Source of the DNA: Oligoflexia bacterium
Lineage (GTDB): Bacteria > Bdellovibrionota > JAFGOL01
Direction: 5' to 3'
Assembly: GCA_016926495.1 (NCBI GenBank)
Contig: JAFGOL010000115.1
Location: 1 to 11,301, forward strand
Length of the DNA: 11,301 bases
This document shows positions 4,513-11,301 of the stretch, piece after piece (within the stretch, counting starts at the first letter, position 1; the number at the start of each line of letters is the position of its first letter). The position numbers and the translations under genes are program-made. Under the pieces are notes generated by a model. The model saw only the letters and a list, made by a program, of their open reading frames with translations, did no database searches and was not told where the DNA came from.

Positions 4513-4860
4513 ATGCGCGCCTGGATAGCCGGTAAAATAGACATGTTGTGGATCAACCGCGGCCTTATCAAGAAGATGCTGCTGGTTATGGGTATACCGA
4601 CGCTGTTTTTTGTAGCAGTCGTTGTTTACCTGGCGGGTACGGGCGGTGTGTCCAATTACACTATTTCGGGGTACGACTCTGATTTTGTTATTACGGACAG
4701 CCTCATGAGGGGCGTGAGGCTTGTGTTTACGTCCATACTTTTTGTAATTATGCCGGTTTATATTTCCGTTATGGCACTGGTCAGAAAAAGCATGGCTTAC
4801 AGGGTAGCAGCCGCTATAGCTAACCTGTTTGCGATATTGTATCTTGCAGTTCTTTTTTAA
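4513..4860 (+). CDS. Small three-helix membrane protein of unknown function
   Basis: I do not recognise this 115-residue protein. It has a basic N-terminus and three predicted transmembrane helices at about residues 22-42, 68-90 and 95-114. Between helices 1 and 2 is a polar loop of about 25 residues, with the sequence GYDSDFVITD. Charge distribution (N-terminal K/R, and R/K at 91-92) suggests the N-terminus and the second loop face the cytoplasm. A good ribosome-binding site (GGAGG, 8-nt spacing) and a near-consensus promoter support it as a real, separately transcribed gene. Its last 41 nt overlap the 3' end of the opposite-strand gene, and it ends in a hydrophobic helix with no soluble tail. 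No residue pattern suggests an enzyme. Confidence 0.72.
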   Translation: MRAWIAGKIDMLWINRGLIKKMLLVMGIPTLFFVAVVVYLAGTGGVSNYTISGYDSDFVITDSLMRGVRLVFTSILFVIMPVYISVMALVRKSMAYRVAAAIANLFAILYLAVLF

Positions 4861-5866
4861 TAAGATCGAATATATCAGCCGTTTTCTGTATGTTTTCCCT
4901 GTTCTTGTTTACCAGTACAGGAATTTCCAGGTTGGTGGCGTGGAATACGCCGTTTGAAATTATAACGTCGTAAGACGGGTAACTTGAAAAGATATCGTAA
5001 ATATGCCTCGGCAATTCAGGATATTCGGTGAACCTTGTAAACTGGTATATCTCCCTCGGCGTTATTCTGGGCGGAAGCGAAAAAAGCGGGTGGGAACCGT
5101 GATGTTCTATTTCCATGATGTTGTTTACGGTATTTACGGTGACACTGCCTTCAGGAAAATATATATTCCAGAGGCTGCCCTTCCTTACTGCCATCATGTC
5201 CGCGCCCTGTGAAAAAAATTGTGCCGGGTTCCGGGTGTCTATAATTTTGTCTTCGGCGGAATTTACCAGGAGCAGACCCGGGATCGGAGAATTGCTCTTT
5301 GAATTGTCAAGATGGTACATGCTCATTTTCAGCTTGTTCCTGATGATCTTTCCGGACCCCGTAATTATTATCAGTGGCTTGATGTTCGGGACGAGGTTAT
5401 TAAGGGTGTGTACAATATGATCTATGAAAAAATAAAATGTTGCCACCATCTCTTTTACCCGTCTTGTAGCATGTATGTTGTAATGGTGAAGGGATTCCAG
5501 CGTTATACATATAAACCTTGCCTTGTTGGCCTCAATGTGGCTGACGGCCGCGGCCCATGTTTTTTTGTCCATTCTTATGGGATCAAGGCTCAGAACGCTT
5601 TCAAGCTTGCTGTAGAATTCCGCCCTGATGTCCGGGGAAGACGGATACAGGTTGAATATTGAGGTTGTATTTTTCATTTCAAAGGAGAATGTGGCAGGAT
5701 ACGAGCCTGTCAGCATGGGAAAAATTGAGTACGGGTAAACAAGTGGAGGGGTGCCCAGAGGATTGTGTATTGTCATGCATTCGGAAACAGACTGCAGTTT
5801 GCCGGCCTCGATTAATTCATCAAGCTCATGCAGCATCAGGTCTTTTATTACGATCAATATAACCAT
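4820..5866 (-). CDS. Alkaline-phosphatase-fold protein, apparently catalytically dead paralogue
   Basis: This 348-residue soluble protein has no signal peptide or membrane helix. By eye it aligns along most of its length with the phosphodiesterase-like protein at the other end of the same operon. Paired segments include 'ELDELIEAGKLQSV' with 'VFNALLESGELPNI', 'PMLTGSYP' with 'PFFTGLFP', 'PLIIITGSG' with 'QTLIVISSDHG' and 'QKTADIFDLI' with 'VRTVDIFPSI'. The active-site residues are lost. The first Asp becomes K8, the nucleophilic Thr becomes Y44, and the D-x-x-x-H pair falls near S125/Y129 (alignment uncertain by two residues). The Asp-His pair becomes S171-G172, and the last His becomes N305. 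It is therefore probably a pseudoenzyme with a binding, regulatory or scaffolding role. The frame is fully open over 1 kb, which argues against simple decay. It starts 3 nt after the exporter stop codon without a clear ribosome-binding site, so translation is probably coupled. The family assignment rests on the paralogue comparison. Confidence 0.7.
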   Translation of the reverse strand: MVILIVIKDLMLHELDELIEAGKLQSVSECMTIHNPLGTPPLVYPYSIFPMLTGSYPATFSFEMKNTTSIFNLYPSSPDIRAEFYSKLESVLSLDPIRMDKKTWAAAVSHIEANKARFICITLESLHHYNIHATRRVKEMVATFYFFIDHIVHTLNNLVPNIKPLIIITGSGKIIRNKLKMSMYHLDNSKSNSPIPGLLLVNSAEDKIIDTRNPAQFFSQGADMMAVRKGSLWNIYFPEGSVTVNTVNNIMEIEHHGSHPLFSLPPRITPREIYQFTRFTEYPELPRHIYDIFSSYPSYDVIISNGVFHATNLEIPVLVNKNRENIQKTADIFDLIKKELQDTISQTG

Positions 5867-5869
5867 AAT

Positions 5870-8305
5870 CTATTTTTTTCTGTTTTCCAGTAACTGTATT
5901 ATCGCGGGCATAACCGTTATGGCTGAAACAAACGCACAGGAAATCCCTATAATGGCAAGCCAGCCTATGCCTTTTAGCCCGTAGTTTTGCGCCGTAGCAA
6001 GGGAGCCGAACCCTATTAAGGTTGTCGCTGCGGAGAGTCCTATCGCGTAACCGACTTCTTTCAGCACATTCATTATGGAACCTTTTCCTTCCTCAAGATA
6101 CCTGTGATAGAGATGTACGGTGCTGTCAATCCCTATTCCCAGCAGGGTCGGGAATATTATCGCGTTCATGAATGTCAGATCAAGTTTAACTACATACATT
6201 ATTCCGAACATTACCAGGATACCGGTAACCAGCGGGATGGTTGTAATTACCACGGCCCTGATCTTTCTGAAATCAATGTATAAAAGCAGGAGCACGGCGA
6301 TCAGGGCGAACAGGACGGCGTAAGGTCCTTCCGATATTATAAGCTTCATTATGTCGGCGTAAATAAGTGTTTCCGCGACAAGCTCGAATTTAATGCCTTC
6401 ATCGGCTGCCTTTTTTATGATCTGGTCCGTTTCTTCGGAAAAAGCAATAGCCTGGTCAACTTCCCACAGGTTTTCATTGTCCATTATTTTGGGATACATC
6501 ATTATGAACCAGCCGTTGTACGGGTCGGGAAGCCTGAGCTTTGATACGATGTCATCCGGTATGTCCCTGAGCGTAAACGGTTTTGAGGAACTGATCCTTT
6601 TAAGCCTGTCTATGTCTTTTTTTTCTTTGCCTTCCAGAAGGTTTAGCACCCTGTCATGGGCCATGCTGTTGAGTTCCCTTATGTACGGGTACTTGGTTTT
6701 CTGGTCCTCGGGAACGATATTCAGGACGTGGAAAAGCTGATCTATGTATGATTTGGATTTTTTTTCGTTCTCCGCCTTAACATCCTTTATGATCTTTTCG
6801 ATTTTAGGTAAATTTTCCATTTTTTCCGTTACTATCAGCGATGGCGATATTGCGGCCCCGAAAACTTCCTCTTCAATCTGGTCCTGCTTGTCGAACAGCC
6901 TGCCCTTGGCTTTCAGTTTTCTGAAATCTCCTTCAAAATTGATGTGGGGCAGCATTATGAGTGAAGCGATTACCGCTATTACCCACACTGCGACGGTGGC
7001 TACGGGGAAAGGAAATTTCTGCGCCTTGCCGGCTGTAACGGAATTTTCTTTTGGTTTTTTTTGTTTGACAGGGCTGAACCTTTCAAGAAGTATGGCAAGA
7101 GACGGAAGTACAAAATAGATTGAGAACAGGCAGATAAGTATACCGGCGCCCGCTATCAGTCCGAACTCGCTGAATCCCCTGAAGTCCATGATGGTAAGCG
7201 TAAAAAAGGTAGCCGAGGTAGTCATTCCCGCGGTGAATGTAGCCTTTCCGGTTGAAGTCAGGATGGCATATATGCTTTCCCTCAGGTCCGTCCCTTTTTC
7301 CCGCTCAAAATTATATCTCATAAACAGATGTATTCCGAAGTCAATGCCCAAACCCGCCAAAACTGCCGCCAGGAACGCTGTAATCAGGTTGACATGACCT
7401 ATTGCGATTGTCGCGAAGGCGGCCGTGTAGCTTATTGCCAAAAGCAGCGGCGTTACAATCAGAAAAACCGAACGGAGTTTTCTGGTCGCCGCTGTAATCA
7501 GGATAAAGGAAAGAATTATAAAGATGATGGACGACCTTGTCAGGTCCTGCATCAGTATCTGGTTTTCCTCTACAAATGTTTTGTACCTGCCTATTACCGA
7601 AACTTCAAGATCGGGGTCGTAGCTTTTAGGGTCAAGATCGTTTATCAGCTTTTCAACCTTGTTTATAAGATCCGTTGAATACTTCATGTCAGAACTCGGC
7701 TTTGTGGGTTTGGCCCTCAACGCGAGTATCGTCCCTTTTTTATTGACGTAGTAGTCGCTTTCCACGTCTGTGGAAGCGGCCTCGTTCCTGTTCTTTTTGT
7801 ACTTGTCCTCTATATCGCTGAAATCCAGGGGCACGTCTTCGCCCAGGAGATCAATGTAAAAGGGGTTTACCTTTTTTCTTTCCACTTTGAGCTTGGTTGC
7901 TATCCTGTCGTGGATCTTTATTACGTCTTCGGTGTCAAGATAGTACAAAAACCGCGGCTCAAGAAAATCCTTGTTTTTGTTCAGTATGACATAACGGATT
8001 TCCTTTAGCTTCAGAAGCTCGTCTGACAGCTTGCGGGCGAATTCCTTTGTCTTTTTTGTGATCTTTTTCGTTTCAAGGGGGATGAGCAGAAAACCCACGC
8101 CGCCGGCCTTTTCAGTGACTGAATTAAGGTCCCTGGCAGAGGGTGTGTCTTCGGGAAGGAGGTCCACGAAGCTGGTTTTAAACTGTATCCTTGAAGCGAT
8201 AAACATGCTCAAAACGGACAAAAGAACGGCTGCAATGATTATTTTAACGTGGTGCCTGAATATAAAATCAAGCAGATACCTGAAATGTTTCTCTTTCAAC
8301 ATCAT
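5870..8305 (-). CDS. MMPL/RND-superfamily exporter (HpnN/COG1033-like)
   Basis: This 811-residue inner-membrane transporter has the two-fold RND layout. Helix 1 is at about 20-38. A large periplasmic domain (about 40-255, with the typical 'SFVDLLPEDTPSARDL' entry) leads to five helices (about 257-408). A charged cytoplasmic linker (410-432) leads to helix 7 (about 434-452). A second periplasmic domain (about 455-655) precedes the final five helices. Each half carries the conserved acidic residue of helix 4 or 10: D322 in GLGIDFGIHLFMRY and D727 in GIGIDSTVHLYHRY, the expected proton-relay sites. Relatives such as HpnN move hopanoids or other lipids; the substrate here is not shown. It is a little shorter than typical HpnN. 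GGAGAGG (8318-8312) lies 6 nt before ATG 8305, with a second in-frame ATG at 8302. The start lies 38 nt inside the VTT gene, and the next gene follows after 3 nt. No outer-membrane or periplasmic adaptor partner is visible nearby. Confidence 0.9.
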   Translation of the reverse strand: MMLKEKHFRYLLDFIFRHHVKIIIAAVLLSVLSMFIASRIQFKTSFVDLLPEDTPSARDLNSVTEKAGGVGFLLIPLETKKITKKTKEFARKLSDELLKLKEIRYVILNKNKDFLEPRFLYYLDTEDVIKIHDRIATKLKVERKKVNPFYIDLLGEDVPLDFSDIEDKYKKNRNEAASTDVESDYYVNKKGTILALRAKPTKPSSDMKYSTDLINKVEKLINDLDPKSYDPDLEVSVIGRYKTFVEENQILMQDLTRSSIIFIILSFILITAATRKLRSVFLIVTPLLLAISYTAAFATIAIGHVNLITAFLAAVLAGLGIDFGIHLFMRYNFEREKGTDLRESIYAILTSTGKATFTAGMTTSATFFTLTIMDFRGFSEFGLIAGAGILICLFSIYFVLPSLAILLERFSPVKQKKPKENSVTAGKAQKFPFPVATVAVWVIAVIASLIMLPHINFEGDFRKLKAKGRLFDKQDQIEEEVFGAAISPSLIVTEKMENLPKIEKIIKDVKAENEKKSKSYIDQLFHVLNIVPEDQKTKYPYIRELNSMAHDRVLNLLEGKEKKDIDRLKRISSSKPFTLRDIPDDIVSKLRLPDPYNGWFIMMYPKIMDNENLWEVDQAIAFSEETDQIIKKAADEGIKFELVAETLIYADIMKLIISEGPYAVLFALIAVLLLLYIDFRKIRAVVITTIPLVTGILVMFGIMYVVKLDLTFMNAIIFPTLLGIGIDSTVHLYHRYLEEGKGSIMNVLKEVGYAIGLSAATTLIGFGSLATAQNYGLKGIGWLAIIGISCAFVSAITVMPAIIQLLENRKK

Positions 8306-8972
8306 CGTTTTCCTCTCCGTTTTTACTGTGGCAGAATTTTCGTTTAATAAAGTTTTCCATGGGTACCCATACTGTCAGCAGAAGCATTATTACGCCGATA
8401 ATTACTATTACCCATGTGGGAAGCTGCAGCATATAGCCGAACAGGGCAAGGGCGGTGAATCTTATGGCCCGGCCCAGAAAGATACCGAACAGGTACCTTG
8501 CCATGGAGTATCCTGAAACAGGCACCAGTATTCTTATGGGATAAAATACGGGAATTATACCCGTGGAAAAAAGCAGCACAGTGATAAAAGGCATTTTTTT
8601 AAAATATTTTACGCCTTTTTTGAACGCGTTTTTTTCCTTTAACGGAGCGATTTTTTTATGGTTGAATGCCTTGGCCACGATGTAATAATCGATGAAGGCC
8701 GATATCGCGGCCCCGAGTGAACCGTAAAACGCTATGGGAACGGGGTGCATTATTTTCGCATAATAGAGTATAAGGGGCTCATGCGGAATGGGTATAAACG
8801 AGTTGGTGGGTATTGAAAGAAAAGTAAGATATACTATCTTTGAGTATTCGGGAAAAAATATAAGTATCGCCACGGAAACCAGACTTATTCCGGCCATAAA
8901 TCTTAAGAAGATTTTCTGGCTTAAGGGCCGCCTGTTCCAGAACCTTACGATACCTTTTAAATGATTTTTCAT
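8268..8972 (-). CDS. VTT/DedA-like (SNARE-associated domain) membrane protein
   Basis: This 234-residue integral membrane protein has hydrophobic segments at about 22-40, 46-60, 77-100, 128-150, 157-180 and 186-205. The middle resembles the VTT (SNARE-assoc, DedA/TVP38-type) domain. The first half has a re-entrant-like PIPHEPLILYYAK segment, then a glycine-rich helix 'GSLGAAISAFIDYYI'. After that comes 'PIRILVPVSGYSMARY' and 'FLGRAIRFTALALFGY', close to the family pattern of an Arg/Pro segment then F..G...R. Members of this superfamily are linked to lipid flipping and transport of undecaprenyl phosphate or phospholipids; the substrate here is unknown. The C-terminus is charged and cytoplasmic. 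Its ATG overlaps the MEMO-family stop by 4 nt (ATGA), with AGGAAAGGA just upstream. Its 3' end overlaps the exporter gene by 38 nt, consistent with coupled translation and a shared membrane lipid role. Confidence 0.8.
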   Translation of the reverse strand: MKNHLKGIVRFWNRRPLSQKIFLRFMAGISLVSVAILIFFPEYSKIVYLTFLSIPTNSFIPIPHEPLILYYAKIMHPVPIAFYGSLGAAISAFIDYYIVAKAFNHKKIAPLKEKNAFKKGVKYFKKMPFITVLLFSTGIIPVFYPIRILVPVSGYSMARYLFGIFLGRAIRFTALALFGYMLQLPTWVIVIIGVIMLLLTVWVPMENFIKRKFCHSKNGEENDDVERETFQVSA

Positions 8973-9817
8973 ACACGGTCCTTTCCTGATTTTCTGAAAA
9001 AAACCATTCCCGCGTAAGCGACTACCTCCCTTGTGTCGCCGGTGATTTCTCCCGAGTTCGAATAATCAACAAGTTCCGTCCCGATTTCCCCGTTAAGGGA
9101 TTTTATGGCTTCAAGCATCACAGCAACCGGGAAAACACCGCACATTGAAATATCGTTTTCCGTAACAGTGTCAATAAGTCCTTTTGCGTCCAGTTTTGAT
9201 ACCTGGGACAGGGCCTGCCTGTCCTTGGCTTCCGCTTTTTCGGAGCTTTCAAAATGCGTCATGTCTGATGACGCGACGATTAAGGGTCTTGGCATGCCTT
9301 TTTTCATCCGGTCAGAAATTATTTTTGCAAGGCAACTCCCGGCTTTTTTGACGATGTCAAGAGGGAGGTGCCCCAGTGTAACAGGGACTATTTTAATATC
9401 AGGATTAAGGTATTGCAAAAACGGTATATGAACTTCCAGGGCGTGCTCACGGTTCTGGGACGCCTCGTCAAACCTTGATACAGGAAGCAGTTCCGAAAAC
9501 TCTTTCAGGAAAGTGGAATCAACGTCTACAGTCCCCATGGGGGTTGCCCATTTTTCCGCGGGATGCAGCGATATGGGAGCTCCCAGTCCTGTGTGGTTGG
9601 GACTCAGAATGATCGCCGTATCCGGAGCGTTTATGGAGCCGTAGACCATGCCCGCCGTTTTACCTGAGTAGATGTACCCCGCGTGAGGTACCATAATACC
9701 CAGTACATCGGAATATTTTTTTTCGGACGGTATTACATATTTGTCCAGACTTGCCTTAAGCTGCTGGGCGTTAAGGGGGTAAAAATGTCCGGCAACCACG
9801 GGATAGCGAATATTCAT
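8969..9817 (-). CDS. MEMO1 family protein (AmmeMemoRadiSam system protein B type)
   Basis: This 282-residue soluble protein matches the MEMO family over its full length. Signatures in order are RYPVVAGHFYP near the N-terminus, VPHAGYIYSGKTAG, SPNHTG, NREHALEVHIPFLQ, VASSDMTHF, a Cys-Gly pair, and DYSNSGEITGD near the end. H45, H75 and C226 fall where human MEMO1 has the metal ligands H49, H81 and C244, so a metal site looks intact. In prokaryotes the family often sits beside an AMMECR1-domain protein (A) and a radical SAM protein of the AmmeMemoRadiSam group; neither is visible here. The fold is related to extradiol dioxygenases, but the bacterial function is unsettled. It overlaps both neighbours by 4 nt (ATGA), so translation is coupled with the phosphodiesterase-like gene and the VTT gene. 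No ribosome-binding site is obvious. Confidence 0.93.
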   Translation of the reverse strand: MNIRYPVVAGHFYPLNAQQLKASLDKYVIPSEKKYSDVLGIMVPHAGYIYSGKTAGMVYGSINAPDTAIILSPNHTGLGAPISLHPAEKWATPMGTVDVDSTFLKEFSELLPVSRFDEASQNREHALEVHIPFLQYLNPDIKIVPVTLGHLPLDIVKKAGSCLAKIISDRMKKGMPRPLIVASSDMTHFESSEKAEAKDRQALSQVSKLDAKGLIDTVTENDISMCGVFPVAVMLEAIKSLNGEIGTELVDYSNSGEITGDTREVVAYAGMVFFRKSGKDRV

Positions 9818-11283
9818 GCGCTTTTATTTAGCACTGACTTGCCGTCAAGTCCATTACCAAATTCATGTCCGAAAAATTCAAGTATGCTTGGAAAAATATC
9901 GACTGTTCTTACATATTCCGTATTGATACCGGCATTCATCGCGAAGGGTACAAACATCTGGCCAGCGTTTATTGCTCCGTGCGTGGCATGATGTTCGTGC
10001 AGTTCAAACCTGGCCCTGAGATCATATCCGGGTCTGGCGCTTATTACCAGATCGCCGGCCCTCTCGGAACGGAAGATCTGCATAAGCTGCAAAAGTCCGT
10101 CAGGATGTTCAGTGTTGTATGTTTCCTTAAGCTCCCTGTCCGGGTCCATGTCATTAAAAGTTTTGTTGTAACCCATGGGATCGGAGCCTGAGAATGTGTA
10201 GGATATTCTGTTGTCTTTCATGGATATTTTTCCCGTGCCTTTTGGATTTCTTACCAGGATATTATTTTGTCCGTCAACGCAGGCAACGATATCTATTCCC
10301 TTAATGTCCAGCAGCAGGTCAAAGAGTCCGGATTTTTCGATTTCATCCGATAACGCCCTGGGTCCCCATTCCCTTTTACCCAGGCGTAAATAGAGATTAA
10401 GCATGCCGTTTCCTGAAACCATGCTCGCGGTTTTTGCGCTGCTTCTCCATATCTTGGGGAAGTGCAGACAGTAGAACCCGTTGTCGTCTAGATGCCTGGC
10501 AATGTCTATATGCGTGTGCGTGTTTGTAAGGCCGTGGTCGCTGCTGATTACGATCAAGGTTTGATCGTAAGTTTTGTTTCGTATCAGTTCGTCACATATA
10601 AAACCTATGCCCCGATCCACCTTCCTGTATTCGTTTATTACCCTGGTTGACGTAATATGGCTCAGATGTGCGTGCTCGTCTATGCCCGGATAAAGGCATA
10701 CCACGCAGTCATGTCCGTTCCTTACCGCGTTCACGGTATATTTTGTCGCGTGCCTGTCCAGAAAGGAAAAGTCCCTGCTTATAAACGCGTAAAGATAATG
10801 AAGGCTTTTAACGTGTGAAGTAAGATCGCATTTGCGCGGACAGCCCTTGGTCAACAGGTTGTATACGTTGGCCGGGTTTTTAAAGTAGTTAAAAAGTGTT
10901 TTGGTTTCCATAATGTCCCTGTTGAAGTTTACTCCGTCAAGCCCCATGTAACTGCATATTCCGGGACTTCTGAACCTGTGCGGTTTCAGATAATTCTTTT
11001 TGGAAAGCCACCTGATGCCCGGAACATTGGCGGTGCCCGGAAAAAGCCCGGTGAAAAAAGGTATAAAAGCGGGACCTGTTGTTGACGGGAAAACGGATAC
11101 GGCCTTTCTTAAGCTTCCCCTGTCTATTACGTGTTTTTTTATATTGGGAAGTTCTCCGGATTCCAGGAGAGCATTGAAAACGTCATACGGAACACCGTCA
11201 ATAAGAAAAAACAGTAATTTATTAAAGTTACGCCCCGTCATTAAAAAAGCATTATCATGAGAAGCCGCTTGCCACAACTTCAA
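9814..11283 (-). CDS. Alkaline-phosphatase-superfamily phosphodiesterase/phosphatase-like enzyme
   Basis: The protein is up to 489 residues, with the type I phosphodiesterase/nucleotide pyrophosphatase fold. Visible active-site elements, numbered from the upstream TTG, are D29 in FFLIDG, the nucleophile region FPSTTGPAF with T69, D202 and H206 in 'YPGIDEHAHLSH', D249-H250 in 'IVISSDHG', and H435 in 'HHATHGAINAGQMFVPF'. That set would bind two zinc or similar metals and cleave a phosphate ester or diester; the substrate is unknown. There is no signal peptide or membrane helix, so it is probably cytoplasmic. TTG at 11283 opens the longest frame, but neither it nor the ATG at 11241 has a ribosome-binding site. 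I prefer ATG 11241 (475 residues), because the first conserved strand begins shortly after it. It is the first visible gene of the five-gene minus-strand run and overlaps the MEMO-family gene by 4 nt. Promoter and any earlier operon genes may lie beyond the right edge. Confidence 0.85.
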   Translation of the reverse strand: MKLWQAASHDNAFLMTGRNFNKLLFFLIDGVPYDVFNALLESGELPNIKKHVIDRGSLRKAVSVFPSTTGPAFIPFFTGLFPGTANVPGIRWLSKKNYLKPHRFRSPGICSYMGLDGVNFNRDIMETKTLFNYFKNPANVYNLLTKGCPRKCDLTSHVKSLHYLYAFISRDFSFLDRHATKYTVNAVRNGHDCVVCLYPGIDEHAHLSHITSTRVINEYRKVDRGIGFICDELIRNKTYDQTLIVISSDHGLTNTHTHIDIARHLDDNGFYCLHFPKIWRSSAKTASMVSGNGMLNLYLRLGKREWGPRALSDEIEKSGLFDLLLDIKGIDIVACVDGQNNILVRNPKGTGKISMKDNRISYTFSGSDPMGYNKTFNDMDPDRELKETYNTEHPDGLLQLMQIFRSERAGDLVISARPGYDLRARFELHEHHATHGAINAGQMFVPFAMNAGINTEYVRTVDIFPSILEFFGHEFGNGLDGKSVLNKSA

Positions 11284-11301
11284 ATTTGTGTGATAGGGTG
11301 T

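Follow-up and report, generated by a model that had tools for sequence, protein, structure and literature searches.

The stretch of DNA analysed here (the window, 11,301 nucleotides) is one entire contig, JAFGOL010000115.1 (C207 in our numbering), of an Oligoflexia bacterium whose genome bin amounts to 1.74 Mb and is 76% complete. Its minus strand carries five genes packed head to tail. The last of them, a gene of 348 codons (4820..5866), is our main subject; its product is a candidate pseudoenzyme of the alkaline phosphatase (AP) superfamily, judged from the list of open reading frames (ORFs), a profile score, a structure model and codon usage. The original prediction had placed an open frame of this length at the end of an operon, and it lies there, fifth of five. 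In operon order, the genes upstream encode an AP-superfamily enzyme, hereafter the window AP (9814..11283; PF01663, E 1.2e-22; its frame is open to the contig end); a MEMO family protein (AmmeMemoRadiSam system protein B; 8969..9817; family matches); a VTT-domain membrane protein (8268..8972; PF09335, E 6.2e-9); and an HpnN-like MMPL/RND transporter (5870..8305; PF03176, E 1.3e-36; TIGR03480 HpnN, E 6.8e-81, under the curated cut-off). If the start codons given in the ORF list are adopted, successive genes overlap by 4, 4 and 38 bases, and a 3-base gap follows, so that the 348-codon gene starts 3 bases past the RND stop. No ribosome-binding site was seen there by eye, which together with the short gap is consistent with translational coupling. 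On the plus strand, a 115-aa ORF (4513-4860; hydrophobic by eye, no family above cut-off) overlaps the 3' end of the 348-codon gene tail to tail by 41 bases. In G001, which belongs to the same family, cobO comes right after the AP and MEMO genes, and neither the VTT-RND-orphan block nor the 115-aa ORF is present. The window (at position 11301) and the contig of locus L022 (at 10911), from two genera, both stop just upstream of the AP gene, leaving the operon start outside both.

The 348-codon frame has the codon usage of a genuine gene. On a scale trained on seven neighbours, the gene itself left out, its codon log-likelihood is 0.211 in its own frame and negative in each of the five others (-0.07 to -0.52), while its synonymous choice score (0.127) falls among those of its neighbours (0.06-0.16); codon periodicity and synonymous choice rule out a non-coding frame. 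When 348 AP codons were substituted neutrally to about 20% identity, in a simulation of substitutions only, a mean of 14.8 stops arose and none of 200 runs stayed open. This rules out long neutral decay, as far as substitutions go, and argues that the frame was kept through most of its history.

Kinship with the AP subfamily was established with a profile of 84 members (omitting L103, L104, L064 and the loci before L022, which repeat others). The 348-codon protein scores 15.9 bits, against at most 7.7 for 5000 shuffles and -2.3 for the reversed sequence, and it still reaches 15.4 bits with a profile from which the window AP, L100, L102 and L114 were removed. A set of 1254 ORFs in this analysis omits those with an A1 match at E <0.01, which counted as AP. 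At the level of sequence, homology to the AP superfamily above chance is thus shown, and chance resemblance is ruled out by these three controls. The similarity forms colinear blocks, chiefly at residues 90-156 and 238-345. The kept fold landmarks of the original prediction hold to the extent that AP similarity exceeds chance by profile; the N-terminal block fits by eye but gives -2.0 bits alone. Other comparisons are fainter. Identity to the window AP is 17% (BLASTP E 0.006; phmmer 2.7 bits, E 8.7), and the HMM-HMM comparison proposed earlier, made with hhalign against 26 AP rows, returned a probability of 7.4% with E 0.0048. A Pfam search found no family at E 1, PF01663 included, and a PDB sequence search no match at E 10.

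The window AP has all seven ligands, which are invariant in alignment A1 (the window AP and 25 relatives). Six of these seven positions, the nucleophile among them, are changed in the 348-codon protein, with equivalences taken from a MAFFT alignment (A2) and a HMMER alignment. The original prediction had all seven differing; H206 is apparently retained as H132. Its assignments of K8 for metal ligand D29 (5843..5845, minus strand; D9 adjoins) and of S171-G172 for metal ligands D249-H250 (5351..5356, minus strand) recur in MAFFT alone, and that of N305 for metal ligand H435 (4952..4954, minus strand; the family's preceding loop is deleted) in both alignments. Two others had to be replaced. Nucleophile T69, formerly paired with Y44, corresponds to I48 in MAFFT (5723..5725, minus strand), followed by a four-residue deletion (GPAF) in which HMMER places T69 itself; S47 lies close to the former nucleophile position. 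For D202 and H206, formerly paired with S125 and Y129, MAFFT and HMMER agree on H127 and H132 (5471..5488, minus strand), the latter after a one-residue insertion and the single ligand apparently kept. Among the 75 columns that are near-invariant in the family, the protein keeps 18, substitutes 36 and deletes 21. The deletions remove the PGIRW block and two loops, one following the nucleophile and one preceding the last metal histidine; the SGNxM columns carry other residues. The two-metal site and Thr/Ser nucleophile that active PF01663 enzymes require are absent. A non-catalytic role by binding the same ligand, as first suggested, is disfavoured by the 21 deleted columns: since the substrate loops are among them, the protein is unlikely to bind the same substrate. 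The other role first suggested, pairing with the active copy, may still hold.

Structure prediction, also proposed earlier, agrees with an AP fold, in a model that is not independent of the family alignment on which it was built. This model reached a pLDDT (predicted local distance difference test) of 79.3, against 34 for a single-sequence model. We take an AP fold of the 348-codon protein as probable.

In a tree of 37 proteins, the end branch of the 348-codon protein measures 10 changes per column (median 0.33). Approximately unbiased (AU) tests rejected three joint clades: with the window AP alone (p-AU 0.0004; the branch is very long), with the window AP and the G001 AP (0.014), and with L100 and L102 (0.023). 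Recent tandem duplication of the window AP is ruled out by these tests, and because they reject the joint clades we regard the protein as a deep relative and not a recent duplicate. The term paralogue, as used in the original prediction, stands for a deep AP-superfamily relative and falls for a close paralogue of the neighbour. The tests assign the protein to none of these three groups, kinship with L100 and L102 being rejected as well. The window AP, for its part, falls with Poribacteria and G001 in the tree; its identity is 46-52% to the Poribacteria loci, 52% to G001 and 31-38% to the phylum's remaining AP proteins, and from these sequences its horizontal transfer is possible.

No orthologue of the 348-codon protein was found by protein searches, among 58 relatives or in the phylum's 367 other genomes; the protein searches are limited to 100 five-residue words, and by our estimate relatives under roughly 40-50% identity could escape them. 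The phylum scan gave matches to the gene at E 0.007-0.1 in 18 of 367 genomes. ORFs at nine of these 18 loci included no orthologue, and three of them scored 12.2-12.8 bits against the gene (phmmer); one of the three, L131, which we take to resemble iPGM, has an E of 4.5e-5 with the AP profile. Forty-nine named AP-bearing genomes had no match to the gene at E 0.01, in a scan with no known positive as control. With profile A2, 198 of 368 genomes match at E 0.001, mostly through weak partial matches, and among 25 checked A2 loci (L138-L162) no second degenerate member was seen, the best ORF of all 25 carrying the DHG motif.

Scanning named genomes with the window AP as a single protein gave no match, and an alignment scan yielded 139 relatives. 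Counts of neighbouring genes refer to the best 80 of these 139, 75 of which have at least 700 bases upstream. A gene for the phospholipid-binding protein MlaC lies directly upstream of the AP gene in 18 of the 80 named loci (in 21 within the flank examined), and an outer membrane efflux gene is near in 19, both named by Pfam on two MlaC examples and one efflux example. The 18 loci with MlaC directly upstream include L087:7968-11422, and the TolC-MlaC-hydrolase arrangement comes from bins titled Latescibacterota, Gemmatimonadetes, Nitrospira and Deltaproteobacteria. At L071 (Calditrichota), a VTT relative stands directly upstream of AP (phmmer E 7e-21; 22.7 bits, below the Pfam cut-off). A search of the phylum's 367 other genomes with the window's VTT protein found nothing at E 1e-6. 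Relatives of the RND transporter stand next to a gene whose sequence looks efflux-like (G005) and next to a weak lipid-transport match that stays under its cut-off (G009). From the MlaC and efflux neighbours of the subfamily, the VTT gene at L071, the contexts of the RND relatives and the HpnN-like RND, we cautiously assign the operon to membrane-lipid handling.

The loss of six ligand positions, the deletion of the substrate loops and the intact frame with normal codon use are clearly seen. We tentatively favour, at a little under an even chance, a catalytically dead AP-superfamily member that works by protein contacts, likely complexed with the hydrolase or docking the hydrolase to the transporter. 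The protein would be soluble and non-catalytic, and co-produced with both the RND transporter and the active hydrolase from an operon that may handle membrane lipids; of its possible tasks, a prozyme-type complex with the active hydrolase would come first and docking to the transporter second. The fuller proposal of a prozyme-like AP-superfamily pair, in which the dead subunit couples a soluble phospho-hydrolase to an RND lipid transporter or switches its activity, is rather unlikely. The pseudoenzyme of the original prediction, in the operon of its intact relative, is upheld in part, by the profile statistics, the ligand loss and a frame intact at about 20% identity, with a model that agrees but is not independent. 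Several observations speak against the reading that we favour. The single-sequence model failed and had no structural match at E 0.001; Foldseek TM-scores are modest, from 0.31 to 0.50 by query length among the matches listed; and the alignment-based model borrows from relatives chosen partly for their best scores against the gene. Among the three best phmmer matches only L100 (19.2 bits) exceeds the chance level, L102 and L114 scoring 12.3 and 11.0 bits where unrelated ORFs taken from the phylum reach 12.8. The MlaC and efflux neighbours occur beside distant AP relatives (L068 onward), and are absent from the window and from the Poribacteria loci and G001, which are closest to the window AP; this slightly lowers our confidence. 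No RND of the window type stands beside AP outside this genome within the flanks examined. One histidine may remain, from the alignments, and a degenerate metal site is hence conceivable. Finally, the protein is known from one sequence in one genome. With a single copy known, the gene is a lead and not yet a system.

Other explanations draw on the same evidence. A former enzyme gene under relaxed selection, open for now by chance or by operon coupling, is unlikely, with these points in its favour: no orthologue was found, the branch is very long, and in G001 MEMO and cobO face each other directly. Its codon usage is normal and its 348 codons are open where about 15 stops would be expected, but the open frame argues against long decay only; release from selection may have been recent, since no second sequence was found. 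We consider it quite improbable that the AP scaffold acquired a new catalytic or ligand-binding activity through non-ancestral residues such as H127 and H132. Two histidines do stand at the former D202/H206 positions, and 10 changes per column amount to heavy remodelling, but the other five ligand positions are changed, loops are deleted, and a single sequence shows no conserved new motif.

We give marginally less credence still to an origin from a remoter branch of the AP superfamily, one introduced along with the VTT-RND block and without particular kinship to the window AP. The rejected clades with the window AP and with the window AP plus the G001 AP would fit such an arrival, as would the lack of VTT elsewhere in the phylum (0 of 367 genomes) and the mere 2.7 bits of the window AP. 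Against it, the subfamily profile matches the protein where PF01663 gives nothing at E 1, and the strongest block (residues 238-304) falls in a region of the family that the best stretches of the PDB matches to the profile do not cover. The AU tests are weakened by long-branch effects, and they rejected the clade with L100 and L102 too. That the protein has an unrelated fold and resembles the family by chance is very improbable, for the empty Pfam and PDB searches and the unmatched single-sequence model are opposed by the shuffle and leave-out controls, the colinear blocks and the alignment-based model.

If the protein does act by contacts alone, a two-metal AP scaffold would have been reused as a pure binding part, in one operon with its intact relative, with a VTT protein and with an RND transporter, and it would offer a handle on an AP subfamily that adjoins MlaC and efflux genes in some uncultured bacteria. 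Like the original prediction, our searches of the open-licence literature (subscription journals mostly fall outside it) brought up no published pairing of an AP-superfamily pseudoenzyme with an active relative among the matches listed. Pseudoenzymes that regulate active relatives are already known, according to the portions consulted of PMC5201418 and PMC3663545, the former calling pseudoenzymes particularly abundant among proteases and kinases. With the PF01663 type I phosphodiesterases/nucleotide pyrophosphatases, the subfamily of the window AP, the 348-codon protein shares colinear blocks and the modelled fold; it differs from them in six of seven catalytic positions, in the missing substrate loops, in length (348 vs about 470 aa) and in having no PF01663 match. 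YejM (PbgA, LapC), an AP-fold protein of envelope lipids, appears among its Foldseek matches. A non-enzymatic role had been argued for YejM in earlier work, as cited in PMC7576196, which in the portion consulted reports that the threonine is intact, that metal is bound and that there is a Mg-dependent phosphatase activity, and presents YejM as a metalloenzyme. YejM combines a membrane part with a periplasmic domain, whereas the 348-codon protein is without the nucleophile, shows no signal or membrane segment by eye and begins with what is the first core strand in the AP alignment, with no N-terminal membrane domain as in YejM/LapC; the NCBIfam YejM model gives it 14 bits (cut-off 825). The prozyme-type pairs of trypanosomatids (AdoMetDC, deoxyhypusine synthase), in which a dead relative is proposed to act on the active one (portions of PMC5201418; PMC3663545), have other folds, occur in eukaryotes and form complexes shown experimentally, while the 348-codon protein is known here from its gene alone. 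Each such pair includes a dead homologue of an active enzyme without essential catalytic residues, a feature that the 348-codon protein has in common with them.
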